A DNA stretch of 64,000 nucleotides from Cryomorphaceae bacterium. Its GTDB lineage: Bacteria > Bacteroidota > Bacteroidia > Flavobacteriales > UBA7430. The notes under the pieces were generated by a model, which made no database searches, was not told the origin of the DNA, and saw only the letters and a program-made list of their open reading frames with translations. This document shows, piece by piece, positions 3,001 through 50,418 of the stretch. The translations under genes and the position numbers were made by a program. Where the stretch lies: assembly GCA_019649675.1 (NCBI GenBank), contig BOWN01000002.1, positions 124,001 through 188,000 on the forward strand, written 5' to 3'. Positions within the stretch are counted from its first letter, which is position 1. Every line of letters begins with the position of its first letter.

Positions 3001-3673
3001 ACATCTCCACTTGAGAATTGGAACTTAACTGTTCTGTCAAAACCAACAGCTGATACTGATATAGTGTTAGAACCTAAAACTAAGTCTCAATTCTACTTGA
3101 ATTTCCGAAAAAGTCACTTCCATTAGCTGTAGTTTTATAAACTCTAACATTAGCTCCACCTTCAGGTAAAGAAGTTACATTCATAGTAAATGTCTGTACT
3201 TCTTGACTAGATGCTCCGTCAGCAGCAGTTGTTGCTGTAAGAATATGAGCCCATGCTGAATTATTACCTTCTTCAAAATCTCCACAATCAGTTATCGCAA
3301 CTGAAGAAACTTGATTAGGTTCAAAATATTCGACTACTGATATTGTAGCTACCATTCCGTTTGCGGCATGGTTTCCAATAGAGCAATCATATGTAAATGA
3401 ACCTGGAGTACTAAATGTAATGCAACCTAAATCACCACCAGAATTTGGTGGAAGGTATTGATCAACAAGATCCTGAGGATTTCCATAACCTGAAAAATTT
3501 ACATCATGATAACCTCCATCATTGAACCAACATACTTGATCTCCAACATAAACAGTTTCATCGATGTCAGTATAATAATAAGAACCAGCATTAACATTGT
3601 GTACTGATTGAGCGTAAGAAATTAGTGGAAATAAAGCAAAAGCTAGGTAAACCACTAAAAAAATCTTCTTCAT
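1..3673 (-). CDS. Secreted cupredoxin / 122-residue repeat / alpha/beta-hydrolase-like protein (3' end outside window, frameshifted)
   Basis: The start codon at 3673 opens a signal peptide ending LISYAQ. A plastocyanin-like domain follows (nt about 3610-3330) with the ligand pattern H (GGYHDVNF) and C-H-M (YDCSIGNHAANGM). Next come four copies of a 122-residue repeat, then a domain (nt about 1860-1400) that also occurs in the 9102-14103 protein, and one GCTDPGAENYN..DDGSC module near 1360-1300. From about 1290 to the left edge lies an alpha/beta-hydrolase-like domain with an early strand VIVLLHTG and the elbow GGDGTGGY, where the usual nucleophilic serine is glycine. The reading frame shifts near 3090, 1700-1610, 980 and 360, with recognisable sequence continuing each time. 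It is inferred to be a surface protein; the T9SS tail would lie left of the window. Enzymatic activity is doubtful. Confidence 0.75.
1861..3306 (-). repeat. 366-bp in-frame tandem repeat, four copies
   Basis: The same sequence restarts at 1861, 2227, 2593 and 2959, exactly 366 bp (122 codons) apart. The first three units differ by only a few bases. The fourth is equally close except for a disrupted stretch around 3070-3100, where the reading frame is also lost. Each unit encodes a beta-rich segment with ITDCGDFEEGNNSAWAHILT and VRVYKTTANGSDFFGN. Near-identity at the DNA level suggests recent expansion or homogenisation. Confidence 0.95.
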
Positions 3674-9101: not shown

Positions 9102-12100
9102 TCATTGATAAGTTTTATATTTTTAACAAAAACATGTGAACCATCATCATAGGTGATTTTTGAATATAAACCTGGTGAATGTATTTAAATGATTATTAGA
9201 AACTTCTCGACCCATTAAGTCAAAATATTGATTTGAAATGACCATTTTGATTATTTTCGATATTCATCTATACCAACTACTGCATTTATATTCAATTTCA
9301 ATCACTTTCAATAACCTCAATCAAACCATTACTTACGAGAGAATAACTTCAAAAAGACCATTACCATATAAGTATAAGTTGGATTAAAGTCATTAGAATA
9401 AGAACCATCACCAAAATTCCATAAAATTGATAATCAGATCCCATTCCAAAACTCTGAATTAAACTCAACAATACCATTTGCAAACATTTCATATGATATT
9501 TGAGCTAGATAATAGAAACAAGATTCATCATTTGTATTAGACTCGGATTATAGTTAAGAGCACCCTTCATCATTACAACCAAAAACAACTTCAGTAAGAC
9601 ACATACTATTATCTTCTTATTATTAATTGGATTAAATTCCAAATAATTTTCATCCATACAACCTATTTCAACTTGTTCACAAAGACCATTATCTGTATTG
9701 GCGGAAGGATCATAATTAAATGCCAAAACATCAGTACATCCATACAATAAGATCTTCACAAGAATTATTTCTACATTAGCAAGTGCATTATATTGTACAT
9801 AATTTTCATCTGTACACCTTCAAGGATAATATAGGTACATGATCCATCATCTGTGTTGGCTATAGGGTCTAAGTTTGAAATTGAAAATAAAAGTGGATCA
9901 TAAGACCAATACTCAAGATAAGTATTATCAGTACATCCCATAACAACAGGAGTTATGCAAGAACCATCATCAACATTCGCATCAATATTATACTCAACAA
10001 AACTAATATCAGTACAGCCTAATGAAATAGGTGTTAAACATAAATTATTATCAATAGTTGCATCTGGATCAAATTCTAAAAATTTGGATCTGTACAACCA
10101 ATAACTGCTAAAGTAACACAAGAACCATCATCGAAATTAGCTTCTGTAGTGTATTCAATATAATTGGGATTGGTACAACCTTCTATATAAGAGTAGACAT
10201 GATCCATTATCAAAATTTGCAGGAGGAAAATATTCCTAAATAAAGACTATTTGTACAACCTGGAATAGCAATTACCAAACAACTTCCATCATCATATTAG
10301 CATTAATATCATATTCAACATAGTTAGAATTTGTACAACCTTCTACATCACAAGAACCATCATCTGAATTTGCTAAATGCATTATAATTCAAAGCATAAT
10401 CAATAGTACATCCATAAATTACAGGAGTAGCACAAGAGCCATCATCAGAATTTGCTAGTGCATTAAACTCAATATAATTAGGATTCATACATCCTTCTGT
10501 AAACGCAACACAGGAACCATCATCAACATTAGCATCAACATCATAATTAATAGAATTAATATCAATACAACCAAATACAGCTTCTGTTTCACAAGAATTA
10601 TCATCTAAGTAGCATCTGGGTCATACTCTGCAAAAAGTCATCAGTACATCCTAAAACATGAGGAATACAGAACCATCATCAAGATTTGCTAAATCATTAA
10701 AATTTTGTGCAGTTACATCAATGCAACCATAAACGGCAGGTATGGAACAAGATCCATCATCAACATTTGCTGATGAATCATATTCATAGAATGCTTCATC
10801 TGTACATCCTTCAACTATTAGATTAAAACAAGTTCCATCATCTAGATTAGCCTGGATATTATATTCTAAATAATCAGGGTTTGTGCAACCATTAATTGCA
10901 ATTATTTCACAGGAGCCATCATCGTAATTGGCTTGAGGATTATATTCGACATAATCATCATCAGTACATCCTAAAATAGCATCATCTGGAAAACCAAACA
11001 AGGCTCTAATACTTAAACCGAATTGTTTTGGAAACGCATTAGGGTATACATTAGGTGAATCTCCAACTATCTCAATAGCAGAAGCAAGACCTTGATCTAA
11101 TTCTGTAGATGACCATAAGTAGCATGAATTACCATTTTGAATATATTCAAATATACCGTCTGAAAATGTTAGCTGACCGGAAATTTGAGCATTAAACTCA
11201 GTTTGTCCATCTAATTGAAGGTCAATACCATTATAATTTAGCAATAAAGTTTCAAATTCTTCAGCAGAAGGTAAATGCCACGAAAATGGGACTGCTTCTT
11301 CAGCTGATTCCCAGGAATAGTATCTACCATTGCCATCCAAATCATAATCATCTATTCCTGTGTAAACAAAACCATTATCAAGCTGTGAAGCAAATCCACC
11401 AGAAGGAATTGAAACTTCTGATGAGCCAGGAATAACATATCTTAAATTCTCTGCCATCCAACATTGCGAACCAATGATCACAGTAGGATATGAATATCCA
11501 TCTCTTTCATCTTTAAAAAACATACCACACATCCAATCTTCTAAATTATATATGCAGGGGTCTTCGATAACATTAAACGTTGCGCTAGGATTATAATTTA
11601 AGGCTTCAGAATTTGTACAATCATCAACTAAAACAGTAATACAATTACCATTATCAAAATCTGCTTCAAAACCTTGCGTATAAAATTCTACGAAACTAGA
11701 ATCTGTACAACCTGGAAAATAATAACATGAGCCATCTTCTTCTTGAGCTAAATCGTTATAATTAATCGCATCCGGATCCATACAGCCATATACGACATAA
11801 GTAGTACAACTAATTTCTGCAGCCCAACCAGGATATGTAACACTTCCATCAGAGGTAAAGGTAATTGTCAAAGCTCCAGATTCATTAGTTTCAGATGCAG
11901 TGAAGGTTTGTGTAGCTAAACTAGTTCCATTTGATCCAGGAACTAAAACTGAAGCGCTGGTAGACTCACCATCATAAATAGTTAAATAATCACAGCATCC
12001 TTCAAACTCAAACTCACTAAAAAATAACGAAACATATTGGCCAGAACTTTCAGGAAAGATTGTGATTTGTTGGTTTTCATTATTGATATATGCTCCATCT

Positions 12101-14103
12101 GGGCCTCCTGAATCGTATAAAATTCCACCACAAGAAGAAATAACATCTTCTTGATCAATATTATATTCTAATGGATCAACAACAATTTCAAAAGAAGATT
12201 CTGCATTACAATCTTCAGAATCTGAAATAGTAACACTGTAAGAACCAGCAGTTAATCCATTTATAGCTTCAGTAGTTTCTCCTGTGGACCATAAAATATT
12301 AAACGGATCATTACCTAGAATAATATCAACAGTTGCAGTTGCATCTGAGGTACCCACTTCAGTTTCATAAGTGGTAATCACATCAACATCAAATCCAAAA
12401 CAAGGACCATAAGTTGTACAACCAATTTCAGCAACCCAACCAGGATATGTTACAGATAAATCTGATGTGAAAGTGATGGTCAATGCCCCAGATTCGTTTG
12501 TTGGAGATGCATAAAAAGTTTGTCCTAATAGACTTGTTCCATTTGAACCTGGAACTAAAATTGGAGATCCAACTGTCTCACCATCATAAATAGTTAAATA
12601 ATCACAACACCCTTCAAATTGAAACTCACTAAAAAATAATGAAACATATTCATCATCATTTTCAGGATAAATTGTTACAGACTGATTTTCACTATTAACA
12701 TACTGACCATCTGAGCCACCAGAATCGACAAAAATCCCACCACATGTTGTTATTTGATTTGATGAAGCGATATTGAACTCACATGACCCATCGTCCTGAG
12801 TTGCCTCAACATTATAATTAGTTGCTTCAGAATTCGTACAACCTAGCTGATTTTCACCTTCTACATTGATGAAAAAAGAAGGTATAGCATTATTTAATAC
12901 AGAATAATTTCCCTCAAGTTGAGCGTCTAATAATACATTGCCACCTGAATAGGGTAATGTCAAATTTATATCATTTGGAATTCCAAGAGGTGCAAAATTT
13001 AAAGATAATACAGATGCTAGTAATATTTCATTAATTCCGCTTTCAGATGGTATACCTGATAATGTAATATATCCAGAAGTATTTGGGCCAAAATAGCAGT
13101 TTTCTAAGCTACAGGAATATGTCATTCCACTTGGCATGTTTACAGTGCTAATTTCTAAAGAATTAATGGGGAAGTCTAGAACTTGACCATTTAGTTCAAT
13201 GGTTAAAAATTCAGGTACATCTATTTCAATAGACTCATTATAATTTTCTCCTAAAGATGCAATTGGTAGTGTAATCTCAGTATTATCTTCATTATATGTG
13301 CTCCCTTCTGGTGCTTGAAATTGTATTATTCCAACTTCAGATTCCTCATCTGTTGAACAATTAAAAATAACATTTGCATTACTACCAACATTAACACCAT
13401 TTGTAACATAAGTTGAACCATTCCCAACAGCCCAAGACGTAATATCTATATCAAATAATTCATCTCCATTAACAAGAAAGTATGAGATTGATTCATTTGG
13501 TGCTGCACCGTCAACAATAGTAGTTACTGCATCATCTCCCCATACTACAACTGAAGCTTGAGTAACCCCAAAGACAGAGACAGAACCAACAACTAAACCT
13601 GAATTATCTGCAACTGCAACAACATAAGCATCCTCTTCTAAATTTGTGGGAAAAGCCCCAACAATTTCTGATGTTAGCATCACAGTCATATTTGAACCAG
13701 TGTTACCTGTATATTGGTCAAGAATAATACAATCTGTAGATATTTCAGTTACCGCAATTTGACCAATCATACCCATGGCAGCATGAGAACCCACTGAACA
13801 ATCGTAGTTATACGATCCGACATCATTAAATGTAATAGAACCCATTTCGCCTGGAAGAGATTGAAATGGAATTGATGCTGAAGCTATTTCTTGTGGGTTT
13901 CCAAAAGATTCTCCAGTTATTGAATTGATATTAAAATTTACATCATGGGAACCACCTTCACTAATCCATGTAACCATATCACCTTGAGAAATTGTCAATT
14001 CTGAAGGAACAAATGTCATTCCTGGACCAACAATAATTGTATGAGAAATTTGAGCAATCATTGAAAATGGAAACAAGAGAAAGATATAGAATAACTTTTT
14101 CAT
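9102..14103 (-). CDS. Giant T9SS-secreted protein: cupredoxin, CUB-like, FISUMP, Cys-module array, PKD (frameshifted 3' third)
   Basis: The first 1150 codons (14103-10651) are open; beyond that the frame breaks often, but modules continue to a T9SS tail. Order: signal peptide to about residue 18; plastocyanin-like domain at 20-118 with ligand pattern H (GGSHDVNF) and C-H-M (DCSVGSHAAMGM); a domain at 260-420 shared with the 1-3673 protein; two CUB-like domains (about 447-564 and 654-764) with CCDYLTIYDGE; cysteine modules; a FISUMP domain (about 850-1040: IIGSQCWMAENLRY, SWHLPSAEEFETLL); 18 tandem cysteine modules; a PKD motif WNFGDGSYSNDFNPTYTY near 9430-9360; then the tail FDLMGREVS..PGLYSKITYDDGSHVFVK. 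It is inferred to be a cell-surface adhesion or binding protein; no catalytic domain is seen. Total length is about 1660 residues. Confidence 0.85.
9585..10975 (-). repeat. Array of about 18 tandem cysteine modules (~26 residues each)
   Basis: On the minus strand a pattern GC(T/M/I)(D/N)xxxxxYNxxAxxDDGSC recurs about every 78-82 bp. I count 18 starts between 10962 and about 9590. Each module has two cysteines about 17 residues apart and acidic D/N-rich loops that could bind calcium (inference). Unlike the 366-bp repeat upstream, these units are diverged in DNA sequence. Frame breaks accumulate inside the array. Confidence 0.85.
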
Positions 14104-24477: not shown

Positions 24478-27321
24478 ATGAAGAACCTCTCAATATTTAG
24501 TATTTATTTTAAATTTATTAGTTTTGGCAGCATGCACAAAATTGGGAACTGATTTGGCAAGATGAATTTACTGGCTCTAGCTTAAATGAACAAAAAGTGG
24601 GTCCATGAAATTGGTACTGGATCTCAAAATGGTTTATGGGGATGGGGAAATGGGAACTACAATACTACACACCAGAAAATACTACAGTAAGTAATGGAAC
24701 TTTAAAAATTACTGCTCAAGAAGAGCCAAATGGTATCGTGGACCCATTTCAAACATGGAACACTCTAAATTATTCATCATCAAGAATTAAAACTGATGGA
24801 CTGTTTAGTTTTAAGTATGGTAAAGTTCAAGCAAGAATTAAAACTGTTGATGGACAAGGATTTTGGCCAGCATTTTGGATGTTACCTTCAGGAGGTTCAT
24901 GGCCATGTGATGGAGAAATAGATATTATGGAACAATGGGGAATGATGAAAATACTAATTTGAGTACTGGTGCTGCACATGTTGGCATTTGCCCTTACGAA
25001 CCTGGAGCACATGTTTATAGTAGTTTCCAAGAGCCAATTAACCAAGGATCATATGCAGATCAATTTCATATTTATGAAGTTAGATGGTATGAAAATTTTA
25101 TTCAATGGTATATAGATGATGTTTTAGTTTATGAAGTAACACCAAATTCATATTCATCTCAATTCAATTGGCCATTTAATGATAATGAATGGTACTTAAT
25201 TTTAAATTTTGCAATAACAAGTTCAGGACCAAACTCTAGTACAATTTTGCCTTCTTTTATTGAAGTTGATTGGGTAAGAGTTTACCAAGAAAATGAAATT
25301 TCTGGTTGTACTAATATAAATGCTTCTAATTACAATAATTTAGCAACATTTGATAATGGTAGTTGTACATATGAAGTTACTTTTCAAGTAGATTTATCTT
25401 GTTCTTCAATATCACCAAATTCAGTTAATGTAACTAGTGGAAATGATAATTGGTCCTGTAATGGAGGAATTAGTCTTAATGATACTGATCAAGACGGTAT
25501 TTGGGAAGGAACCTCTTTCATGCAAGAAGGTATTTTCTCATATATATACTGTGGAGATAATTGGAATTATAACGAAGAAATATTTGCTTATGCTCAATCA
25601 TCTTCAGACTGGAGTTGTACGCCTAATACTGACTATACTAATTATGCTAACAGACAAATAAATATAAATGGCCCTTTAACAGTTTATGAGACTTGGGGAA
25701 GTTGTGAACCTTGTTCATCAAATGGAGAAACATTCGGTTGTACCGACCCATCAGCTAATAATTATAATCAAAATGCTACTATTGAAAATGGTTCATGTAC
25801 ATATCCCCCAACAACTGTAGAATTTACTGTAGATATGAATGGTATAAATCAACCAAGTTCTATTACGACAATGTAGTTGTAAATGGTTCATGGAACGGCT
25901 GGAATGGTTGGGGAGTCATTTTATATGATGAAGATGGTGATGGAGTTTATAATGGTTCTTTAGAAATAGATCAAGGAACAAGTTTTGAGTATGTTGTTGC
26001 AGTAACAGGCGTAGCTGATGAATGGTCAGGTTGGGGAATGCAATGGGGTAATGGTTGTAATAATGAAAACGGGAGTGTAACAGTAAATAATGTTGGAAGT
26101 ACAACATATACTTCATTAACTCCAGGATGTGGAGATGTGGTAGGTTGTATGGATATAAATGCATTTAATTACAATGCAGATGCAACAATTCAAGGTTATG
26201 ACCAATATGGAAACTTAGAATGTGTTTATCCAACATGTAATGATATTCCAGAGTATGGATGTATTTATGCTGATGGCTTTGGCGCTTTCACTGAATTCTT
26301 TAATGCAGCAGATTGTTCATCTTATGGTGGAACTCCATGTGAAGAAACTGTTACAGATATTTCTGGTTGTACTGATGAAAATGCATCTAACTTTAATATA
26401 GACGCTACCATTGATGACGGCTCTTGTAATTTGATTGTTTTCCTGAATGGAATGTTATTATTACTGATCAAAACCATTCAATTTTTATTAATGGAACTTA
26501 TTTAAATTCTGATGGTGAGCTATTAATGAAGGATCTTTAATTGGTGTATTTTACTACAACTCCAATGGAGAATATGTATGTGCAGGATACACTACTTTAG
26601 AAAATGATGCAACTCAAATATCTGTTAGGGGTAAACGATGCATCTACAGAAGAAATAGATGGACTTACAAATGGTGACCAATTTGAATACATGATATGGG
26701 ATATACTAACTTGCAGGAATACGCTGCCTCAGCTAACTAAGCTCTGGAATTGATTATTATGTTATCAATGGTATTAGTTTCATTGATAAAAGTGACAGTT
26801 AATAATGAGATTAATTCACAAGAAATAGAACTTGTACAGGGATGGTCTATTTTTTCAACTTATATACAACCGAATGATCCTGATATAATATCAGTTTTTA
26901 ACCCTATTGCTGAAAATGTAATTTATTAAAGATAATTTAGGTTCAGCTTATCTTCCAGATTGGAATTTTAATGGAATCGGAAATCTTACAAATGGACAAG
27001 GCTACCAAATAAAAATGTTAACTCTCGGTCATCTAAATATTGATGGTGAACTATTACTACCGAAATCACAAATATTAATCTTGGAGCTGGATGGAATATG
27101 ATTGCATATTTAAGGACCTCCCAAGTCCTTGCGACTTAGTTTTTAATTCACTTACTAATAACGATCAATTAGTTATTGTAAAAAATTCTAATGGAAATGC
27201 TTACCTACCAGAATGGAACTTCAATGGAAAAGGATTAATGTTATCTGGAAAAGGATATCAAGTAAAAATGTATGTTCCTGCTACTTTTAACTACCTTTCT
27301 AATGATGAAAACTATGAGTAA
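24478..27321 (+). CDS. Secreted multidomain GH16 endo-beta-glucanase, probable laminarinase (frameshifted)
   Basis: A signal peptide ending HAQ leads to a GH16 domain starting NWELIWQDEFTGSSLNEQKW. It contains SSRIKTDGLFSFKYGKVQAR, the catalytic motif GEIDIMEQWG (nt about 24915-24945; nucleophile and acid/base glutamates both present), and DWVRVYQE at the domain end. C-terminal modules follow: GCTN..DNGSC linkers; a module VEFTVDMNG..NVVVNGSWNGWNGWG nearly identical to one in the 28654-32032 protein; a CIYADGFGAF cysteine module; and two GWS/NMI..YLPxWNFNGxG repeats. GH16 enzymes of this kind cut beta-1,3(1,4)-glucans. At least eight frame changes occur. A T9SS tail is not recognisable; the end after 27321 is unclear. 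Confidence 0.85.
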
Positions 27322-28653: not shown

Positions 28654-31600
28654 TTATTTAACAATTTTCTCAACGGATCCATCAGAATAAATCATAAATA
28701 AGACCCTATTAAGTTCATTGTTTTCATAATTGATAACATCTTGACCTAAAACATTAACAACTCTTTGAAGTACTTTAATTTCTTCTGTTGATAAAACTGA
28801 AGTTACATTAGAAACAAGTTCAATAGAATTTATTTCATATAAATATATACTTTCAACTTCTAAATCAATAAATTTTGAATCTGATAACAACTTAATATTG
28901 AATTGTTCACCAGAAAATAAACCATCTTTATATGAAGTAGTGTAATCATCTCCCCATATTGTTACAACTGACACATTAGGTGTATATTTAGCTGCTCCAA
29001 AAATATGACCATCATCATCCATTACAACTATTTCTGAACCTTCTTTAGGAATATTCGACCATGCTTTATCTTCAATAATTAAAGTCATGTTGTTGTCGGT
29101 TATAGAAATTGAACTTTGTATGGTGGTCGAATTATCTATTACGTCAACAGAAGAAATTCTATAATCAACTTCATTTGCGTTATACTGAAGTACACCAGTA
29201 TTATTAACCTTAATTTGATAACCTTGACCTGGATTTAAATTACCTATACCATTAAAATTCCATTCAGGAAGATAAGCAGCTCCTAAATAATCTTTAGCAA
29301 TAATTAAATTACCAGAGGCATTCATATCAGCCAATACTGCATCGGCTGCAGCCGGAGATATTCTGAGATATCCAATCATATTCCAACCAGCTTGAAGATT
29401 TACAGGATTTTCTTCTGGCAACATATAAGTTCCTGAAATATTTAAACTTATTGATTCAGTTGTTTTAATTTGATAACCTTGACCAACTGTAAGGTCACCC
29501 ACCCCATTAAAGTTCCATTCAGGAAGGAAAGCTGAACCTAAGTAGTCTTTTGCAATTATTACATTTGCCAATATAGGGTTTAGAATGACATTCAGAGCCA
29601 TATCATCCGCTAACATATATGTAGAGAACATAGACCAACCAGATGGTAATTCTATTGTTTGATCTGTAACACTAGGACCTTGAGAATTACAAGGTATACC
29701 ACCGTATACTAAACATAATGAGTCTCCAAATTCTTCGTTAAAAGCACCAAACACACCATCTACTTCATAAATACAGCCTGGCTGTGGGATATCATCACAT
29801 GATGCGTAATTACACTGAAGATACCATATTGATCTAAACCTTGAACTGTCGCATTTGAGTCGTAGTTAGTTGCATTTGAGTCTAAACATCCTAAAACTTC
29901 ACCACATCCTGGTGTTAATGAAGATGAGGTTACAGTTCCTGCATCACCTGCTGTTACAGCAACATTAACGTTATTACATCCGTCACCCCATTGCATTCCC
30001 CAACCAGACCAACTATCAGCTGCTCCTGTTACGGCTACAACATACTCAAAACTAGTACCTGGATTGATTTCTAATGAACCTGTGAATACACCATCACCAT
30101 CTTCATCAGATAATGTTACACCCCAACCATTCCAGCCATTCCATGAACCGTTTACAACAACATTATCATAATCAGCACTTGGTTGATCAACTCCATTCAT
30201 ATCTACAAAGAATTCTACTGTAGCAAATTCAGAATCATCAGGATCATCAGAAGGACATTCAATTCCACAAGTACCATAAACATTTGAAACATTTCCTGAA
30301 CCAACTTCCCACATTCGATTTGCATATGACCAATAATCTGTTACTGTGTACATGACCAATCACCACTAGATGAACCTGACGCTACTAAATCTTCTTGAAC
30401 ACCATCAATGATTAATAAGTATTCCATATTTTCTGTTGGAGCAGGATCAAAAGTAAAGGTCCATGTACCATCACCGTTATCTGTTGCTATAGGACCAGCA
30501 GAAGGATCCCATTCCCAGAATGGACCTGTTAATCTAACTGAATCAGCTTCTTGACAAATAGTGGTCGTAATTAGAAGAGGATTGGCTACTATAATCGAAC
30601 CAACCATACCCATTGCAGCATGAGAGCCAACTGAACAGTCATAGTTATAGACACCAACTTCATTAAATGTAATTGATCCCATTTCACCAGCTCCAGATTG
30701 AACTGGAAGTGAAGCTGACGCAATTTCAGATGGATTTCCAAAGGATTCTCCAGTAATAGAATTTACATCAAAATTAACATCGTGATATCCTCCCTCACTT
30801 ATCCAATTAACAATATCGCCAGGAGATATAGATAATACTGAAGGCGAATATGTCATTCCGGGACCAACTATAACAGTATGAATAGTTGGCGTGTACTCTT
30901 CACACGGAGTTCCACCATATTGTGTACACAAATCAGCAGTAAATTCTTCATTAAATGGACCAAAACCATCTCCATAAATACATCCGTATTCTGGAATATC
31001 ATCACATGAAGCATAAATACACTGTAGGTTTCCGTATTGATCGTAACCTTGTACTGTTGCCTCAGCATCATAATTTGTTGCATTTGAATCCATACAACCT
31101 ACAACACCAACAACTTCTTCTTCACATGCTGTCCCTCCATATTGTGTACATAAATCAGCAGTAAATTCTTCATTAAATGGACCAAAACCATCTCCATAAA
31201 TACATCCGTATTCTGGAATATCATCACATGAAGCATAAACACACTGTAGGTTTCCGTATTGGTCATAACCCTGTACTGTGGCATCTGCATTGTAATTACT
31301 TGCATTTACATCCATACATCCCGCTACTCCATCTATTACTTCTTCACATGGTGTTCCTCCATATTGTGTACATTCTACAGGGCCAAAACCTTGAGCAAAT
31401 GCTCCAAATCCATCTGCATAAATACATCCATATTCTGGAATGTCATCACATGATGCATAAACACATTGTAAGTTTCCATACTGATCAACTGCTTGAACAT
31501 TTGCTTCTGAATTATAGTTAGATGCATTTTCATCCATACAACCATATACATCAAGAACACCAGAGTAATCTGAACTATTCACCACTACATTACTAAGAGT

Positions 31601-32032
31601 AACTGCAACATCTGATACTGTGATATACATTAGAAATGAACTAAATGTATTACCACCTTGAGATGGTATTTCTATAGTATACTCAGATGACTCAGATCCT
31701 AAAGTTACTGATGAAGTAGAAAAGCTTGGCTCAGTGTCAGGGTATGGATTCTTTTCAAATCTGAAGTAAACATCCGCTGAAGCACCATCTGTTGAACCAG
31801 TAAATATAATTGATCCACCTTCTCCAAAAATTAATGGATAAATTGATACATCTTCATTAGCAAATCCTGCCCATGGCTCTGATCCTGAAGGCATAGTATA
31901 AACTCCATCATCTGTAACTACTGTACCACCAAATACTCCTGAGAATACAATATCTGAAGATTGAGCAAATAAAGATGTGATACCTAAAATCACACTAAAA
32001 GTTAATAGTTTTTGTTTTAAATTATAAATCAT
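28654..32032 (-). CDS. Large T9SS surface protein with cupredoxin and glycan-binding-type modules (two frameshifts)
   Basis: About 1125 residues. Signal peptide ends SLFAQ. A jelly-roll-like region lies at about 25-150, then four GCMDxNAsNYN..DQYGNLQCVY / CIYGDGFGPFNEEF cysteine modules to about 375, and a cupredoxin at about 382-480 with ligand pattern H (GGYHDVNF) and C-H-M (DCSVGSHAAMGM). Next are a module SVRLTGPFWEWDPSAGP..ENMEYLLIIDG, a module VEFFVDMNGVDQPSADYDN, two YLPEWNFNG repeats, and a T9SS tail (VVNVLGQDVINYENNELN, ending GSVEKIVK). No catalytic site is seen. It is inferred to be a laminarin-capturing surface protein of the locus; the role of the copper site is unknown. Frame changes occur near 30360 and 29800. 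Confidence 0.85.
30890..31340 (-). repeat. Near-identical 222-bp in-frame repeats within the T9SS binder
   Basis: The stretch encoding CxxYGGTxCEE through the DGFGPFNEEFTADLC module recurs with a period of 222 bp (74 codons): the same bases start at 30930 and 31152. A third, more diverged copy lies up to about 31560. Confidence 0.85.
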
Positions 32033-32095: not shown

Positions 32096-32140
32096 CCCAA
32101 TAATTTTATAGTGGATGATTTAAATTATAGAGTACGATTA

Positions 32141-32950
32141 CTATAATGAAAATACTCTAACCCAATCAATTTGCATTTCTGAAGGAAATAAAGTTTGATT
32201 ATTAGGGGGTAGTTAGGGGTTATGGCTAAATTTAAGATTATATACCATTGGTTATCATTAAAAGGCCAAACATAATTTGAATTATAATCTTCTGGACTTA
32301 CCTGAAAAACCATTTCATCATCAACAAACCAAGATATATAATCAGGGCCCCACTGAATACCATAAATATGAAAATCATTTGCAAATGACTCAGGAGTTGT
32401 TGCAGCATCAGATACATACTGATGCTGACCTGCATCATAAGGACAATTTCCCAAATGAGCTGCACCAGTAGTAACATTTGAGCTGGCACCAGTGTGTCCT
32501 TGTTCCATTATATCTATTTCTCCGTCACATGGCCACTCACCACCTTCTGGAAGAAGCCAAAATGCAGGCCAAAAACCTTGACCATCAACAGTTTTTATTC
32601 GTGCTTCAACTTTTCCATATCGAAAGGAGAATTTATCTTTTGTAGTTATCCTAGACGAAGTGTAATTATAATCTCCAACTGATTCTTCTTTAACAGTTAT
32701 CGTTGCAACTCCATCAGCAAGAGTTGTATTTTCTTGTTTGTAATACTGTAACTCTCCATTACCCCATCCCCATAATCCAAATTGAGAACCATCTCCTAGT
32801 TGATGAGTCCATTTTGAGTTATCAAAGTACTTCCATTAAATTCATCTTCCCATCCCTAATCCAAAATTCATTTGGTGCAGGCTGGATCACATGAAGGAAA
32901 AATAAATGATAAAAAACCACAAAATATAAAACTTAAAAAAATATCTTCAT
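32141..32950 (-). CDS. GH16 endo-beta-1,3-glucanase lipoprotein (frameshifted)
   Basis: About 270 residues. The N-terminus MKIFFLSFIFCGFLSFIFPSC ends in a lipobox-like FPSC, so outer-membrane lipoprotein anchoring is expected. The single GH16 domain shows TSSRITTKDKFSFRYGKVEA, GFWPAFWLLPEGG, the catalytic motif GEIDIMEQG with both glutamates (nt about 32500-32530), HIYGIQWGPDYISWFVDD and DWVRVFSL at the end. No accessory modules are present, unlike the GH16 at 24478. The start overlaps the preceding stop by 4 bases (ATGA). Frame changes occur near 32900, 32840, 32500 and 32200. Confidence 0.88.
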
Positions 32951-40255: not shown

Positions 40256-41879
40256 TTACTTCTTTAATATTTTAATAATTGAATTTTGTGAATTTTCATC
40301 AACTAATTGAATCATGTAAACACCATCACTTAGCGAGCTAATATCAATTTCATCTGCAGGATTATTTACTGACTTAACCTGTTTTCCATAGATGTCATAA
40401 ATAAAAAGGCTTGATACATTAGTGTTCAATCTAAATTTATCAGCAACAGGATTAGGGTATACAAGTGACTGATTTATAGATTCATCTAAATTAAAATCAT
40501 TACCGCAGCCTATACATGACCCATAGTAAACACCTGTAACATCTGAGTAAGTAAGAACTCCACCTTGGATAACACCAGAACCGACTTCCCACAAACGATT
40601 AGCGTATGAAAAGTAATCAGATACTGGCGTACATGACCAATCACCCGACTCAGATCCAGCCGCAACCATATCTTCCATCACACCATCAACAACTAATAAA
40701 TATTCCATATTCTCTGATGGTGCAGGATCAAAAGTAAATGACCATGTTCCATCAGAATTCTTTGAAGCTTCTGGACCCTCTAAAATATTCCAACCCCAAA
40801 ATGGACCGGTTAAACGAACAGAGTCAACATCCATACATGGATTAACTGTAATTTTCAAAGATGATACGTTGTAATAACACTGTCCATCATCAACTGAGGC
40901 ATCAGGATTATAATTGATTGCCTGACTATCTGTACAACCTGATATAGGACCAGTTGCAAATTGGATATCATCAAAGTAATAAGTTGACATAGCTGAACCA
41001 TCACCAACTACTCCCATATTAAAAATTACAACCACCCTATCGTATAAATCAGATGGCTGAGAACCAAAATCATAAGATAAAACTTCCCACGCATTTGCAA
41101 CTGTAGTATTCATAGTTAATTCTGTATTTACCCCTGTAGATGATTGTTCTATTTTAAGCAAAACAGGAATATCAGCAGATGGAGCATATACTTTCATATT
41201 AATAACTGAGCCATTTGAAAAATCAATTGGTTCTACAGATATATAAGTACCTGCCCAAAACTGACCTCCATTTCGGACGTGTTCAACAACATTACTTGAT
41301 GAATTAATATCAGAAGAATAAGGATTTGGAACAACAGTTGAATTTCCACCGTCAAAATCTGTAAATTCAACAGAACTAGACTCAAACGTTAATGGAAGCA
41401 TTGTTGGTATTATACAAGAACCGTCATCTTGAGTAGCTAAAGGATTATAATTAGCTGCAGCTTCATTCATACAACCATATATAACAAGTGTACTACAATC
41501 TTCACAGGTACCATAATAAATACCAGAAACATCACCAGAACCAACAGCCCATTCACGGTTAGCGTAAGTTTCATAATCAGTTACAGGTGTGCAATCCCAA
41601 TTTTGACTTGCAAGATTTGAACCAACAAGATTTTCCATGATACCATCTACGACAAGCAAATATTCCATGTCTTCTGTAGGGGCAGGATTAAAATTGAATG
41701 TCCAGGAACCATCTCCATTATCGGTAGCCTCTGGACCAGCAGTTAAGTTCCATTGCCACCAAGGCCCTGTCATTCGAACTGAAGATGCATCACTACAAAC
41801 GTAGTTGTAATAGATAAATTTTGGGACATAACAATATTTGATCCCATTACTAAAAATAAAAAAGTAGTTTTTTTGTCAT
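40256..41879 (-). CDS. T9SS-secreted glycan-binding-type protein (frameshifted near 5' end)
   Basis: About 540 residues. Signal MTKKTTFLFLVMGSNIVMSQ. Two copies of a module with (S)VRLTGPFWxW..DGxWxFxFxPAP..MEYLLVVDG lie at the two ends, each followed by DWxCTPVxDYxxYANRxWEVGSG. Between them is a jelly-roll-like domain (LTFESSSVEFTDFDGGNST.., STYYFDDIQFA) flanked by GC..NYNP..DDGSC linkers. The T9SS type A tail (LVYPNPVADKFRL, VYMIQLVDENSQNSIIKILK) is complete. There is no catalytic motif. It is inferred to capture glucan at the surface and lies between the phosphorylase and the hydrolase genes. One frameshift near 41800. Confidence 0.8.
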
Positions 41880-41979: not shown

Positions 41980-44640
41980 TTAGAAATCAATATCTACATC
42001 AACATCATTAACTATGAGAGCTGTTATCCGATAATCATCATAAGATAACTTATTTAAGTTCTGATAAACCACCTTTATCTTATAGGTGGAAAATATAGTA
42101 GATATAACAGATTGGTTATTTTTATCAAAATAATTAGAACTGAGCTTGGGTTCTAGCTTTAACATTCCCATTTCTCCTTTAACACCATATATTTCAGTAA
42201 TTAAAGTCATTAAAAACCATGATGATGAACCAGTCAAGTAGGCATATGCTCCTTTATTTTGATGGTTAAAGTAAGAGGGTATACCAGGAAATATTTGAGC
42301 TTTTTCGGTATTATTTGCAATCTCATATACCTCCTGCATTATTTCATTTCCTTGTGTAACCAAACCTTGTTTATACAAACCGTAAGCCAACATAATATTT
42401 TGTTGAACCCACTTAGATCCGTGTTCTTTATGACCATAAACAAAACCAGTAATACGCCCTACATTCATGTCTATCTCTTTAAATTCTGAGGTCAATCGTA
42501 TACCAGGACTACCCTCATCTTTAAGAACTTTCTTTATGGCCTCATATACTTCAGCAGACATTATTTTGTTAGAGACATTAGAAATAATTGGTATTACTTG
42601 AGATGTTAAATCCATCATTATAGAACCATTTTTTTCGCCACCAATCTTATTCTCTAAATTATCATAGTGTCCATTAAAAAACGAAGTCCTTATTTGTGGT
42701 AAGAATCTCATTTTCCAATATATGAGATGATATATGCTCTGATTTTACTTTTAAATCTCTAATCAATTCATCAATAACAACATCCTCTTTTCTTCCACTT
42801 ACCGAATGTTCCACAGACTTAAAATAATTCTCTAAAACAATACGCTTGGCTCTGGATCTTGATAATTGACCTTGGCTGAACCAGGTGTATGATCTAATAA
42901 TTGATCAATTCTGATAATAATGGTATAGTTGTATTGCCATTAGCCTTTAATTGATTTAAAAATCAATTAATAAGATAAAGTTATGAGCATAAAAGCTATA
43001 AAAACAAACAGAGCCTCCACGATCACGAGCCATGTCATATGTATCATTCCAATCTGCCCCTTCTAGTAATAATACATTTTTATCATTTACATTAAAAAAT
43101 GAGGTTAATTGTTGAATGAGAACATGCTCAAATATAGAAGCTGAATAAACGTTACCATCTGTATCCTTCTGTTTGTAACCATAAGAATCAGTCCAACGTT
43201 CATCAATTTTTTACAACGGTTTTTAAATTGATCCTTCCAATAAGGAACTTCTTTAAAAAGCGTGTTAAAGTCGCCAGACTGATTAACATAGAAATTAAGA
43301 ACAAAAACCGGCCATGCACCATGATCGCTCCATGTTCTAGGTATATTATTTCTATCTGCTTTAAACTCGCCAGACTGCTCTCCAATAATCGTAGCATTAG
43401 AGCCGTCAACACGGATACCTTTAAAACAATTGATAATTTCTCTTTTGCACTTATTGGATCCACTAAAAATATAGACAATAAATCTTGCCAAAGATCTCTC
43501 CAACCTCTTCCACCTCTTCCATAAGAATAATCAGGCAAGTATGAGTTTCCAAAAATTTGTCTACATTTTACTTGATACTCAATCCATTTAACCCAATTAT
43601 CGAAATTATGATTTCCGGTACTGACATTAACACTGTTAAGCTTTTCTTTCCAATAATTTATTGTGAAATCAATTTTTTGATTTACATAATCAATATTTGC
43701 ATATTCACTGACCATCTTGAAATATCATCTAAAGAATCTGTAATACCATGTATAACAACATATTCAACAGATTCACCAGGTAATAAATTCTTTCTCTTTA
43801 AACTTAACTGCAGCAATTGCTTCTGTACCATGAAGTTCTGAGTCAGTTAATTTTGGTGGTGTTAAATCCTTATATATGGCTTCAGGATTATCTAAAGTAC
43901 CTGAGTGCCCGATGAAATCTTTTAATCTTGCCCATATTTTTTCTGGCTTGGTTCCATTTTCATCAAATGCCAAAACTGCATAATTAGTATGGTTAACCGA
44001 ATGGCATGATTCATCGTGCTTAATTCTTGGTTTAATCCTTACTCCAAAATCTTCAATATAATTCTCTTGAAACATATGTTGTTACCTGTCTATGGTCTCT
44101 AAAATTATCTGCAGACCTTCCATAAAGAGGTAAAGCATAGTAAGGGTTAATTTTTCTTGATTGAGTACTTGGTATTTAAAACACGTATTTTAAGTAATTC
44201 GACAAAATCATCGACTTCGGGAACTACAGTTGTAATTTCAACTTCAATTCCTGAAAGCTCTTGTTTTCTTTTGGTTGTAAAGAACCTATTTTAGCAGCAA
44301 CAGAATAGCCATCTATTGCACCATTCCAATGACTGGCCTTTTGAAATACACTCTGACCAGTAGCAGACCAAGGCTTTAAATCATCGACCTTAAGCCAAAA
44401 ATTTCTACTAGAAAGTGTTCTATGAATTTCCTCAGTTACTGTTGGAGTTGTTAAATAATGATTAAAATCTTTACAAACATCACCCTTTAAAACTGGAGTA
44501 ACAAAGGATTTCATACCTTTTGAATTCATCAAAGGAAAGTATAAAACTGGAAGATGATTAGCATCCTCTACAAAGAACGAACCATCATTCTGATCCGAAA
44601 ACTGCCAACTAATTCCAGAAGATTTTTTCGTTAAAGACAT
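41980..44640 (-). CDS. Glycoside phosphorylase, GH94/GH149-like, putative beta-1,3-oligoglucan phosphorylase (frameshifted)
   Basis: About 885 residues. Fragments in order: GISWQFSDQNDGSFFVEDAN (N-terminal beta domain), YGRGGRGWRDLWQDLLSIFL, TWSDHGAWPVFVLNFYV, LEGADWNDTYDMARDRGG with the probable general-acid aspartate (near 43050), then TGFVYGHKEHGSKWVQQN and AYAYLTGSSSWFLMTLITEI. These are landmarks of inverting phosphorylases of clan GH-Q and relatives. No signal peptide, so it is cytoplasmic. Its gene starts 1 base after the sugar transporter stop. With laminarinases in the same run, phosphorolysis of laminari-oligosaccharides to glucose-1-P is inferred. Cellobiose-type specificity is not excluded. 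At least seven frame changes. Confidence 0.75.
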
Positions 44641-44641
44641 C

Positions 44642-46183
44642 CTAATTAACTAAAATATTTTCTAATTCTTCAAGAGACTTACCTTTTGTCTCAGGAACTT
44701 TAGATATAATAAATATTAAACCAAAAAGAGCGAAAACGCCATAAATCAAAAATGTTGTACTCGAGCCTAGATTACTTAACTCCCATGGAAAGATTAGTTG
44801 AACAACTGAGCTAATAAAAGAATTTACAAAAGCAATTGATCCTATTGCTAAACCTCTATATTTTAAAGGAAATAACTCAGACAATAACACCCACATAACA
44901 GGACCTAAAGAAAAAGCAAAACAAGCAATAAAACCAAGGATCCCAATTAAGATTAAAGTAGAGTTCATTTTACTTGCAGCTTCTAAAATAGCCCCATCAT
45001 TTTTACCATACACATTAGACCCTAAAATGGTTTTAATCTCATTTTTAAAATCGACATCATTTGTATAGACTTTATCTGCAACAGAAATTAATTTTTCTGA
45101 ATTTAAAAACTCAAACTGATTAATATCTTTCTCATTTAATCGATAAGTAGCTTGATTAAAACCATAAGCACATATCAACAAACTAACAGCAATACCCGCA
45201 GTTCCAATTAATAACAAAGGCCTTCTTCCCATTCTATCTATTAAATAGATGGCCACAAAAGTGAATATTACAGAAATTGTACTTAATAAAACTCCTGATG
45301 AAAAAGCGGCGTCAGTTCCGATACCTGTTTGTTTAAAAATAGAAGTTGCATAGAAATAAACTGCATTAATACCTGTGATTTGCTGCAAAATCCCAACAAT
45401 TAAACCAACGAATAAAATAAATCGCAAGCTGGGTTTTAATAGGTCTTTAATTTTTAATTTGATTTTATTTTTAACTGCAGAACTATTTTCTTCAATTGAC
45501 TTAATTTCTAATTCACCTCTTTCGTGACCATAAATGTTAACCAATACTTCTTTAGCTTTTGATACTTGATCATTTAAATACAACCACCTTGGACTTTTGG
45601 GTACAAAAAATAATAATGAAAAATATAACAGTGCAGGAATTAATTCAATACCTAACATCCATCTCCAAACATTTTCATCAGTCAAAAAATTACTATCAAT
45701 AGTATTATACTTGTTAAAAAGATAGTTGCTTAAAAAAGCTGCGAAAAAACCAAATACTATATTGAGTTGCTGAAGGGAAACTAATTTACCTCTATTTTCT
45801 GCTGTAGATATTTCTGCAATATACATTGGAGCTATAACTAGTGCTGCTCCGAATGCTAAGCCACCAATAATTCTGGCAATGTAGAGTATTTCATAAGAAG
45901 TTGCTAAAGCTGATAATATGGCAGAAACAGCATATAGAAGCGCAATGAAGACTAATAATTTCCTTCTTCCCCATATATCGCTTATTCTACCGGAAATAAG
46001 CATAGAAAACATTGCAGCAAAAGAAGGTGAACTAACAACCCAACCAACTTGAATTTCTGTCAAATCAAATTCAGGTCCGGCATATGTCATAACACCAGAT
46101 ATAATTCCTGCATCAAAGCCAAAAAGGAAACCTCCTAAAGCTACAATAAGAGATATAAATACAATCTGTAATTTAGTTCTCAA
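44642..46183 (-). CDS. Sugar porter family MFS transporter
   Basis: Intact, 513 residues, twelve hydrophobic segments. Sugar-porter signatures: FGFDAGIISGVMTY in TM1, GRISDIWGRRKLL in the first loop, PKSPRWLY before the central loop, QQITGINAVYFYATSIF in TM7, DRMGRRPLLLIG, and PETKGKSLEELE at the end. A periplasmic insertion (about residues 345-410) is longer than in XylE-like proteins. The frame opens with TTG; a misread ATG is possible because the 5' leader (AAACCCTTTTTT) matches that before the 32032 gene. Import of glucose or short glucosides by proton symport is inferred. Confidence 0.88.
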   Translation of the reverse strand: MRTKLQIVFISLIVALGGFLFGFDAGIISGVMTYAGPEFDLTEIQVGWVVSSPSFAAMFSMLISGRISDIWGRRKLLVFIALLYAVSAILSALATSYEILYIARIIGGLAFGAALVIAPMYIAEISTAENRGKLVSLQQLNIVFGFFAAFLSNYLFNKYNTIDSNFLTDENVWRWMLGIELIPALLYFSLLFFVPKSPRWLYLNDQVSKAKEVLVNIYGHERGELEIKSIEENSSAVKNKIKLKIKDLLKPSLRFILFVGLIVGILQQITGINAVYFYATSIFKQTGIGTDAAFSSGVLLSTISVIFTFVAIYLIDRMGRRPLLLIGTAGIAVSLLICAYGFNQATYRLNEKDINQFEFLNSEKLISVADKVYTNDVDFKNEIKTILGSNVYGKNDGAILEAASKMNSTLILIGILGFIACFAFSLGPVMWVLLSELFPLKYRGLAIGSIAFVNSFISSVVQLIFPWELSNLGSSTTFLIYGVFALFGLIFIISKVPETKGKSLEELENILVN

Positions 46184-46453
46184 AAAAAGGGTTTAAATAA
46201 TCACTATAATTAAATGCGAATATAATCTTTTTTTTTATTGTAATTTATACACATAATTATCGATTTCACACAATTTTAAAATTTATTTTCAATAGCACTT
46301 AATCAAAAATATTATGAATATAGATCGTAATTAAAGAAGAAATCAATTAAATTTGCGTTACATGAACACTTAATAATTTGATTGAGTTTTGTACAAAATA
46401 TTATAAATTTCACTCAAACAAATCTCAAAATTTACTTGAAAACAAATTTTTAA
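46184..46453. promoter_or_regulatory. Divergent control region between transporter/phosphorylase run and zwf operon
   Basis: A 270-bp AT-rich non-coding region. It holds TACACATAATTA (46248-46259) and CACACAATTTTA (46267-46278), both resembling the right arm of the inverted repeat at 32069-32095. It also holds a 12-bp palindrome TTTTGTACAAAA (46387-46398). Promoters of both directions must lie here, but no clear TAnnTTTG element was found. Confidence 0.5.
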
Positions 46454-47911
46454 ATGATAAAGACAAACAAATTAGAAAATTTATTCTTATCAGATATTGT
46501 CATATTTGGAGGACTTGGAGATTTATCTATTAGAAAAATTTTACCTGCCATATATTTCAGACTTCAAGCCAAACAACTTGCAGACAATTGCAGAGTTATC
46601 TTAATTTCTCGTAAAGACTTTAATAAAAAGGAATTTGAAGATATATTAAGAAGTAAAATTGAAAATGGTATTGAAGATGTCTCAAAAAAAGATTTAAACC
46701 ACTTAATTTCAATTTGTGAATATTACAAAGCAGATCTAAACCAAAAGGGTTGTCTCAACAATTTAAAATCATTTTTAAGATCAGAAGATAATGTAGTTCG
46801 TCTATTTTATTTTTCTGTTTCCTCCACCCTATTTGGATCTATCACTAAAAACTTAAAAGAAGCTCAATTAATCACTCCTAAATCTAGAGTAGTACTTGAA
46901 AAACCTTTGGGACACAATGCTGAATCGTCTAGAGAAATAAATAATGAAATTGCAGGTTACTTTAATGAGTCACAAATATTCAGAATAGACCATTATTTGG
47001 GTAAAGAGACAGTTCAAAACCTAATGGTACTTAGATTCACAAATAACCTTTACGAGAACGCATGGAATGCACAAAACATAGATAATATACAAATTACTGT
47101 ATCTGAAAACCTAGGTGTAGGAAGTAGAGGTGGCTTTTATGACAAATATGGTGCGTTATTAGACATGGTTCAAAATCATTTACTACAATTAATGTGTCTG
47201 GTAGCAATTGAACCACCTAACATCCTGGATGCAAATACTGTTCGTGATGAAAAACTTAAAGTACTTAAATCCCTCAGACCAATTGATATAGATTCGTGTA
47301 AAACACATACAGTTAAAGGGCAATATACGAGAGGTAAATTAGACGGTAAATCAGTAAAGTCATATCTAGAAGACATCGAAAAATTTAACTCAGATACAGA
47401 AACATTTGTTGCAATACGAGCTTACATAGATAACTGGAGATGGGCAGGAGTTCCATTCTATTTGAGAACTGGAAAAAGACTCAGTAGAAAACATTCTCAA
47501 ATTACGATCAATTTCAAAAATATACCTCATAACATATTCCCAGATGGAAAAAGTATTGTTAACAATAAACTAATCATTAATCTTCAACCTGAAGAGAGTA
47601 TTGAATTAGTTCAGACTGTTAAAACACCTGGTCCGGGTGGATATCGTTATGAACCAATATCATTAGTTTTGGATTATGGCTCATCATTTAAGGAACGTTT
47701 TCCAGATGCATATGAGAGATTGCTAATAGATGTAATTAGAGGAAATCAAACATTATTTATGAGAAAAGATGAAGTGGAAGCTTCTTGGAAATGGATTGAC
47801 TCAATAAATCAAAGTTGGGCTAAAGCCAAAATTAAAAATCACTTATATTCATCTGGAAGTAATGGACCTGGTGATCATATTCTATTAGATAAACATGAAT
47901 GGAATAATTAA
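46454..47911 (+). CDS. zwf: Glucose-6-phosphate 1-dehydrogenase
   Basis: Intact, 485 residues. IFGGLGDLSIRKILPAIY is the nucleotide-binding loop, RIDHYLGKETVQNLM the substrate-binding signature with the catalytic histidine region, and VPFYLRTGKRL is also conserved. It oxidises glucose-6-phosphate to 6-phosphogluconolactone. It is the first gene of a four-gene Entner-Doudoroff operon and starts a shared divergent region with the sugar transporter. The first glycine-rich motif reads GGLGDL rather than the commoner GASGDL. Confidence 0.95.
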   Translation: MIKTNKLENLFLSDIVIFGGLGDLSIRKILPAIYFRLQAKQLADNCRVILISRKDFNKKEFEDILRSKIENGIEDVSKKDLNHLISICEYYKADLNQKGCLNNLKSFLRSEDNVVRLFYFSVSSTLFGSITKNLKEAQLITPKSRVVLEKPLGHNAESSREINNEIAGYFNESQIFRIDHYLGKETVQNLMVLRFTNNLYENAWNAQNIDNIQITVSENLGVGSRGGFYDKYGALLDMVQNHLLQLMCLVAIEPPNILDANTVRDEKLKVLKSLRPIDIDSCKTHTVKGQYTRGKLDGKSVKSYLEDIEKFNSDTETFVAIRAYIDNWRWAGVPFYLRTGKRLSRKHSQITINFKNIPHNIFPDGKSIVNNKLIINLQPEESIELVQTVKTPGPGGYRYEPISLVLDYGSSFKERFPDAYERLLIDVIRGNQTLFMRKDEVEASWKWIDSINQSWAKAKIKNHLYSSGSNGPGDHILLDKHEWNN

Positions 47912-47914
47912 TTT

Positions 47915-48609
47915 ATGGAAAATTTAAGAGAAAATATATTTACCGACAAATCTGAATTAGAACTAAAACTAGCTTTAGAAATTAGTCAAATACTTAATCA
48001 AGAGATAAAAAATAAAGGTGAAGCAACTTTGCTTGTCTCTGGTGGAAGCACTCCTAAAAAATTATTCGAAATTCTATCGAATAAAGAAATTGACTGGAAG
48101 AAGGTTAGTATAGGGTTAATAGATGAAAGATTTGTTGCCACCGAAACAGACGAAAGTAATGAATTATTAATCAAAAATACTCTTAAAAAATAATGCCGCT
48201 GATGCTAAATTTATTGGGCTGGTGTTTAACCTAGATGACTATAAAGAAAACTTAAACATCGCAATTTCAAAAATAATGCTATAACAAATCTATTACCTGT
48301 AGTGTTTAGGAATGGGATTAGATGGTCATACTGCATCTCTTTTTCCTAATTCTGAAGAAATATACACAGACGATAGTATATTTGGAGATAAAATCATCAT
48401 TAACACCAAGGCTTCTTCAGAGCCTAGTAAAAGAATTAGTTACACAAAATCGAAAATACTTAGCTCAAAGCATTTGTTTTTGTATTTTAACGGCAAAGAA
48501 AAACTAGATGTATTTAATTCTGCAAAAAGTCTAACAATCCATCTCTTAAACCTATTTCTGCATTCATTCATCAAAATAAAAAACATTAAACGTTTTTTGC
48601 TCAATTTAA
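47915..48609 (+). CDS. pgl: 6-phosphogluconolactonase (frameshifted)
   Basis: About 232 residues of the DevB/SOL type. TLLVSGGSTPKKLFEILSN and VSIGLIDERFV lie in the first half; GMGLDGHTASLFPNSEEI with the catalytic histidine region and KPISAFIHQNKK lie in the second. Frame changes near 48190, 48290 and 48590. Starts 3 bases after the zwf stop. Hydrolyses the lactone to 6-phosphogluconate. Confidence 0.9.
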
Positions 48610-48618
48610 AACTGAAAT

Positions 48619-50418
48619 ATGAATAATAAAATTATACATATTACAAAACGTATTGTTAATCGCAGCAAAGAAACAAGAGAAAGCTATGTTAAGTTAATGA
48701 AATCTCTTTCCAAAAAGGTGTTTCTAGATCTGGACTTTCTTGTGGTAATCTTGCTCATGCAATTGCAGCATGTTCTGAATCAGATAAGATTAACTTAATG
48801 GCTGAGCAAAAGCTAATATAGGTATCATTTCATCATATAATGATATGCTATCAGCTCATAAACCTTATGAAAAATATCCTGAGCAGATTAAAACATATGC
48901 TAAAGAATTTAATGCTATAGCTCAAGTTGCTGGTGCTGTCCTGCTATGTGTGACGGAGTCACACAAGGAGAAGCTGGAATGGACTTATCTTTATTTTCTA
49001 GAGATGTTATTGCCTTATCAACAGCTATAGGTCTATCACATAACATGTTTGACTCAGCTCTGTGTTTAGGTATTTGTGACAAAATTGTGCCAGGCGAACT
49101 TATAGGTGCATTAAAATTTGGCCACTTACCTATAATATTTGTCCAGGTGGACCTATGAAAACCGGTATTAGTAAGAAGAAAAAGCACAAGTCCGACGTGC
49201 ATTTGCTTCAGGTGAAATAGACAGAAAAGCACTTTTAAAATCTGAATCTAAAGCATACCATTCCTCTGGAACCTGTACTTTCTATGGAACTGCTAATAGC
49301 AATCAAATGCTGATGGAAATTATGGGAATTCAACTTCCTGGTTCTTCATTTGTAAATCCAGATACCGAACATAGGTCTGCACTAAACAAAGAAGCAGTTA
49401 GATTAGCTGTAGAATCAACAATAGATGGAAAGAATTACAGACCTCTTTACGATATTATTAATGAAAAAGCAATAGTAAATGCTATTATTGGGCTTCTTGC
49501 ATCTGGTGGTTCTACAAATCATACACTCCATCTCATTGCAATTGCTAGAGCAGCTGGTATCATTATCAATTGGGAAGATTTCTCTGATCTATCAGAAGTT
49601 ATACCTTCTTTAGTAAAAATGTATCCAAATGGATCAGCAGATGTTAATTACTTTCATGCTTGTGGGGTATGCCTTTATTAATAAAAACACTATTAAATGA
49701 AGGCCTTTTACATAGAGATGTTAATACAATACTTGGATACGGATTAGAAAAATTTACTAAAGAATCATATCTTAAAAATGGTATATTGACCTGGCGAGAT
49801 TGCCCAAATGAATCTGCAGACCAATCCGTATTATGTTCAATTGATAATGCATTTGACAAAAGTGGAGGTTTTAAAAAAATTCTTAAAGGGAATCTTGGTG
49901 TTTCAGTTATTAAGACATCTGCCGTTAAATTAAAGCACTGGCATGTAGAAGCGCCAGCACTAGTATTTGAAGATCAAAATGAAATTATTGAAGCCTTCAA
50001 CAAACAAAAATTGTTCAAAGATTTTATTGCTGTACTTAGATATCAAGGTCCCAAAGCTAAAGGAATGCCAGAATTACATAAACTAACTCCTATTTTAAGT
50101 ATACTCCAAAATAATGGTCATAAAGTTGCATTAGTAACTGATGGTAGAATGTCAGGAGCCTCAGGTAAAGTTCCTGCTGCAATACATTTATCTCCAGAAG
50201 CATTAGATGGGGGAATCTTATCAAAACTAAAAGACGGTGATCCTTTAATACTAAATGCTCTAACTGGTGAATTAAACTGCTTAAATGAAAAAGAAGTTCT
50301 AAATCGAGCTGAAGCAGAACCTCCTTTTATCAACCAAAAAGGGCTCGGAAGAGAATTATTTAGCAACCTCAGAAACTTAGCCTCTAGTAGTGATAATGGG
50401 GCTTCTATACTTTTTTAA
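48619..50418 (+). CDS. edd: Phosphogluconate dehydratase (frameshifted)
   Basis: About 600 residues, IlvD/Edd family. The Fe-S cluster cysteines are recognisable in [31 protein letters not shown] and [16 protein letters not shown]. The C-terminal half contains [18 protein letters not shown] and [19 protein letters not shown]. It dehydrates 6-phosphogluconate to KDPG, the defining step of the Entner-Doudoroff pathway. Frame changes near 48715, 48810, 48940, 49150 and 49660. Edd rather than IlvD is preferred because eda follows 2 bases later. Confidence 0.93.

Follow-up and report, generated by a model that had tools for sequence, protein, structure and literature searches.

The plastocyanin-like domain inside the probable beta-glucan binder of this Cryomorphaceae genome is a ligand-complete cupredoxin, and it is in all likelihood a mobile, generic module, attached to many different secreted proteins. 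The window, by which the whole stretch of 64,000 nucleotides analysed is meant, carries three copies of it. From the perspective of function, it appears reasonably possible that the domain is an autonomous copper or redox module of the cell surface, protective in role and shuffled among secreted proteins that include the glucan binder. Copper capture is the closest rival to this protective redox reading.

A sequence-only reading had placed a plastocyanin-like domain at 30590-30885, with a His followed by Cys, His and Met as copper ligands. Both parts were borne out, the domain having the slightly larger extent given in Table 1. In Pfam, it matches PF00127 (Copper-bind, the plastocyanin/azurin family) with 43 bits (E 6.4e-11), above the curated cut-off of 21.2 bits, and its top sequence matches in the PDB are plastocyanins (E 4e-7, far beyond chance), followed by pseudoazurins, amicyanins and others. 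The structure prediction that the same reading had proposed as a check returned a confident cupredoxin fold: the AlphaFold2 model, based on a 52-sequence alignment, has a mean pLDDT of 92.4 and a pTM of 0.83, and Foldseek ranks plastocyanins first among its structural matches (E 3e-8), which confirms a Greek-key beta-sandwich. When aligned with HMMER to the plastocyanin 1pcs, residues H39 (codon 30782-30784), C88 (30635-30637), H93 (30620-30622) and M98 (30605-30607) all fall on the copper ligands, so that the four type-1 positions are present, and the spacing between Cys and His is two residues longer than in 1pcs, giving a C-x4-H-x4-M loop. Copper binding is very probable, and we infer that the domain is actually loaded with copper.

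Table 1. Positions of the binder and its parts, of the neighbouring glucan genes and of the other cupredoxin copies in the window.
Feature	Position	Strand	Remarks
Cupredoxin (plastocyanin-like) domain of the binder	30584-30898	-	Within ORF 30341-32032; 105 residues
First binder ORF	30341-32032	-	Signal-peptide-like start, D1, three Cys-rich GCMD..A.NYN repeats, cupredoxin, most of D2
D1, beta-rich N-terminal domain	31559-31957	-	From sequence; carbohydrate-binding by resemblance only
D2 module (VRLTGPFWEWD...), CBM48-like	30249-30562	-	Crossed by the frameshift near 30345
D3 module (NGSWNGWNGWG...), CBM48-like by its relatives	29898-30224	-	
Binder C-terminal part, third frame	28657-29865	-	Sorting-signal-like tail VVNVLGQ...MIYSDGSVEKIVK, unrecognised
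GH16 gene piece	32128-32835	-	Immediately precedes the binder, whose frame is 75 bp away
Second GH16 gene, frameshift-split	24609-25873	+	D2/D3-type modules behind
Sister protein	40256-41773	-	Two D2 modules (40496-40843, 41480-41803), no cupredoxin
Second cupredoxin copy, N-terminal	13747-14049	-	In ORF 10651-14103 with CUB and Fib_succ_major (FISUMP); PF00127 E 7.9e-11
Third cupredoxin copy, N-terminal	3332-3607	-	PF00127 E 1.6e-5; full ligands

The binder spans about 28654-32032 on the reverse strand. That the cupredoxin is embedded within it, as first read, still stands, but the binder is not a single open frame: it is spread over three ORFs (30341-32032, 29760-30359 and 28657-29865) through apparent indels, and the first frame break, near 30345 and within D2, reads like the loss of one base. 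Frameshift-split genes are common in the window (24609-25876, 28654-32032 and 41980-44640, covering GH16, GH94-type and binder genes) and elsewhere in the genome. Because many genes are fragmented and the genome is scored as only 71% complete, the frame breaks are likely to be assembly errors, and genes should be counted in this genome with caution. Read through the breaks, the parts of the binder follow one another as a signal-peptide-like start, D1, three Cys-rich repeats, the cupredoxin, D2 and D3, then one more GCMD..A.NYN-type repeat, the C-terminal part and a short tail.

By sequence, D1 has no relative in Pfam or the PDB, D2 and D3 retrieved no convincing solved relatives, and the D2 copies of the window match no CBM profile in Pfam. 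D2/D3 proteins of related genomes match CBM_48, AMPK1_CBM or CBM_20, and the fold matches of a low-confidence D2 model (pLDDT 65.6) are all AMPK/CBM48, at a non-significant E of 0.14. Together, these relatives and this fold pointer make glucan binding by the protein plausible, presumably at the cell surface, and the neighbouring genes indicate that its specificity is probably for beta-glucan. The assignment of the binder to the T9SS can be kept only as far as its sorting-signal-like C-terminus goes, as neither Pfam nor NCBIfam recognises a C-terminal sorting domain on it. A tail of the form IIDVLGRE...YIYDDGSVEKKI, likewise unrecognised by Pfam and NCBIfam in the ORFs tested, ends 30 ORFs (28657-28780 on the reverse strand of the window and 29 in the fetched loci), and a control with random truncation gave 0 ORFs; it is possibly an undescribed T9SS-type sorting signal.

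Besides the GH16 genes, the neighbourhood of the binder contains GH94-type fragments and a sugar transporter, and the sister protein at 40256-41773 has a recognised T9SS tail (Por_Secre_tail, E 1.4e-11). Behind the glucan locus, the region 41980-50418 carries GH94-type phosphorylase fragments, the sugar transporter, a glucose-6-phosphate dehydrogenase and, named by eye, a phosphogluconate-dehydratase-like gene, a set that could plausibly form a route from glucan to the Entner-Doudoroff pathway.

The cupredoxin of the binder is not alone. The genome holds six copies, one of them without ligands, and the two further N-terminal, fully liganded copies of the window that had been read at 13760-14046 and 3330-3610 were recovered at nearly the same positions. 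The second copy shares 78% identity with that of the binder, in both protein and DNA. When the two were compared by BLASTN with 300 bp of flanking sequence, a single match of 283 bp (78%) was obtained, ending at the domain edges; this confinement of DNA similarity to the domain indicates that it moves as a cassette. Both are mutual nearest neighbours in a tree built from a short alignment, in which many forks are unresolved. The third copy opens a long, fragmented protein (358-3673 in the window; C2:121000-124500 in the genome, locus L160) that extends outside the window and comprises repeats, repeated alpha/beta-hydrolase (esterase-like) domains and, beyond the window, a recognised T9SS tail; a similar hydrolase lies behind a cupredoxin and two D2 modules in locus L043. 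Of the copies outside the window, one belongs to a small secreted protein ending in a T9SS tail, one is followed by two fasciclin-like repeats and one, the ligand-less copy (L037:9638-10159, C1:290718), has similar repeats behind it, these repeats being named by eye.

The domain was present in 27 of 60 related genomes, the one studied here included, and a motif-guided scan of species genomes gave 259 relatives. Of these, 80 loci were retained, and almost all of them lie in assemblies whose titles name Flavobacteriales or other Bacteroidetes. No homologues were retrieved from phage records by DNA search or from plasmids by protein search. Among 87 scanned carriers, Pfam recognised a T9SS type A tail on 27, Fasciclin, one of the most frequent carrier families, on 15 and a Lamin tail on 10 (in L088, L129, L137, L141 and similar loci, the cupredoxin lies inside Lamin-tail proteins of about 1350 residues). 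NCBIfam models of ExeM-type nucleases match nine of the 87, which places a copper domain on likely extracellular nucleases. Other carriers have esterase-like or CUB parts or are nearly stand-alone proteins. CBM48-like D2/D3 modules occur in only 8 of 103 domain-bearing ORFs, spread over several separate tree branches. The special tie between copper site and glucan that had been drawn from the binder is thus not upheld, since carriers are mostly non-glycan, and a module so common on many carriers is by itself no evidence for copper chemistry on glucan.

In the mechanism that we propose, the domain would be an extracellular type-1 (blue-type) copper module that folds independently and binds one Cu through His, Cys, His and Met. 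As a cassette, it would have been copied between secreted proteins of marine Flavobacteriales, and in the window one copy lies behind the Cys-rich spacer repeats and ahead of the CBM48-like modules in the probable beta-glucan binder. It may ride on any carrier, the glucan binder being one among many, and work autonomously at the cell surface in a one-electron or copper-holding capacity, with which it would protect the surface from oxidative or photo-oxidative stress or buffer copper. This protective redox or copper role, taken on its own, is proposed as possible, with some reserve.

The genes found beside other copies suggest a link to oxidative or light stress. In eight loci (L085, L089, L094, L100, L114, L117, L122 and L134), clustering, reading and Pfam showed a conserved gene pair, in which a stand-alone cupredoxin of 168-180 aa follows a SelR/MsrB gene on the same strand after 0-34 bp; the upstream SelR/MsrB gene has a signal-peptide-like start. 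All eight belong to related genomes, and a single ancient event may account for them. A glutathione-peroxidase gene lies 67-78 bp from the domain gene, with a SOUL gene next, in four loci of one family, and MerR/B12-type regulators are divergently encoded within 300 bp in six loci; cupredoxin, glutathione peroxidase, SOUL and MerR/B12-regulator genes form a conserved cluster in L046, L066, L071 and L072. In the genome studied here, the copy at C1:264624 (L036) has a photolyase 4.8 kb away and a MerR/B12 regulator 6.2 kb away, and the region around it (C1:255000-274900) also contains PAS and flavoprotein-like genes. A SulP-like transporter gene is found within about 1.7 kb on the same strand in ten loci (L086, L087, L102, L104, L105, L115, L119, L139, L054 and L058). 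Several recurrent neighbour clusters whose representatives were long frames of antisense appearance, taken from G+C-rich genomes, were left out of these comparisons. All these stress contexts belong to other copies, mostly in other genomes: no stress-type gene stands beside the binder of the window, and the sole SelR gene of the genome is located on another contig. A more ambitious version, in which the shuffled type-1 cassette builds a surface redox or antioxidant layer with functional links to MsrB and glutathione peroxidase as secreted enzymes, is considered unlikely; if true, adhesins, nucleases and glucan binders would all equip the cell surface with a redox centre of their own.

Copper capture or buffering, in which surface copper would be collected for uptake or kept harmless, is regarded as rather unlikely. 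Most copies are ligand-complete, with several per genome, they sit on many unrelated carriers as well as on nearly stand-alone secreted proteins, and 27 of the 87 carriers weakly match the model of the copper-resistance cuproprotein CopI, far below its cut-off. Against it, no copper transporter, chaperone or regulator was found by eye among the recurrent neighbours, and the site is most like those of electron-transfer proteins such as plastocyanin and rusticyanin.

The domain could also be a structural or adhesion module, a beta-sandwich that serves as spacer or binder and that copper, if bound, merely stabilises. Its combination with adhesion-type modules would fit this, as would the persistence of a subfamily with lost ligands (HCNM, HSDM; L037, L051, L052, L053 and L073), one member of which belongs to this genome and which implies that the fold may be of use even where no copper is bound. 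The pattern of conservation makes such a role improbable. In a set of 45 domains assembled without motif selection, 37 keep His, Cys, His and Met, despite an identity to the window copy that often falls to 40-60%; ligand loss in most homologues, named beforehand as grounds for abandoning the copper site, therefore does not apply. The other eight comprise one domain cut by a frameshift, two with Gln in place of the axial Met (CSVGYHAANGQ; L054:9494-11299 and L058:2109-4322), a natural change like that in stellacyanin-type sites, and the five of the ligand-less subfamily. The first His and the Met, neither of them part of the search motif, are moreover kept in 59 of 59 motif-selected domains.

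Delivery of electrons to an oxidative enzyme was one of the roles originally suggested for the domain; acting on the bound glucan, such an enzyme would be an LPMO, a multicopper oxidase or a PQQ sugar dehydrogenase. The idea is not absurd, given that a real redox enzyme, the nitrite reductase 2dv6, has a fused C-x4-H-x4-M cupredoxin, and the combination of the domain with glucan-binding-like modules in several tree branches speaks for it. So does the neighbourhood, in part: the survey near glycan loci that had been proposed found a GH16 gene within 12 kb of 5 of 44 copies (0.58 expected, Poisson P 0.0003), a modest enrichment, although three of the five lie in this one genome, and fragmented assemblies and a distance chosen afterwards limit what the comparison can show. 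Besides the window, two D2/D3 carrier loci (L067 and L125) have a GH16 gene about 8 kb away, in a cluster that, by eye, also includes a transporter-like gene and a GH3-looking gene. GH16 enzymes, however, are hydrolases without an electron requirement. The candidate partners were rejected in turn. No LPMO_10 was found in this genome (71% complete) or in any domain-bearing relative, and no Cu-oxidase_3 in this genome at the same completeness. A PQQ-type sugar dehydrogenase (GSDH) gene is present, and its relative L158 ends in a binder-type tail, but such genes are equally frequent whether a genome carries the domain (13 of 27) or lacks it (16 of 33), a distribution unrelated to it. Both class-I c-type cytochrome matches of the genome lie in the same stretch as iron-sulfur, NrfD-like and other respiratory-type genes, and hence provide no surface partner. 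Since none of these families supplies a supported partner for oxidative attack on glucan, and most carriers are unrelated to glycans, electron delivery is very improbable.

Cupredoxins are mostly known either as electron carriers that stand alone or as components of redox enzymes. In marine flavobacteria, a cupredoxin that has all its ligands and is appended quite generally to secreted surface proteins, with several copies per genome, raises the question of why bacteria of the surface ocean keep redox-active copper outside; the MsrB-cupredoxin pair of relatives offers a concrete starting point. In the open-access literature, nothing directly relevant connected a cupredoxin or a plastocyanin to T9SS, to laminarin or to fasciclin; since many journals are outside its coverage, this silence supports novelty only weakly.

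Compared with known systems, the domain is closest to plastocyanin (PF00127; TIGR02656; PDB 1pcs and 4r0o), with which it has in common the fold, the four-ligand set and the best matches in sequence and structure. It differs in its loop, C-x4-H-x4-M instead of C-x2-H-x4-M, and in being anchored within large proteins that heterotrophs secrete; the second protein of the window reaches 35.5 bits against TIGR02656, for a cut-off of 87.85, and is therefore not a plastocyanin proper. Rusticyanins match the C-terminal ligand loop without gaps and auracyanin matches the binder cupredoxin in fold, although the domain is shorter here, the respiratory context was not found, and the second protein scores 15.7 bits against the rusticyanin model TIGR03095, below its cut-off of 146.7. 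The N-terminal cupredoxin of nitrite reductase 2dv6 is likewise a fused module with equal loop spacing (CSIAGHRQAGM), but its partner is a redox enzyme, whereas no partner domain known as such occurs here. As with T9SS-exported multi-domain surface proteins, a type A tail is borne by many carriers and a recognised T9SS tail by the D2 sister protein, in contrast with the short, unrecognised tail of the binder itself. Finally, the laminarin loci described in marine Bacteroidetes (PMC6246565), in a text that does not mention copper, likewise combine GH16 and phosphorylase-type genes, an MFS transporter and binding proteins, and to this arrangement the locus of the window adds a cupredoxin-bearing binder.
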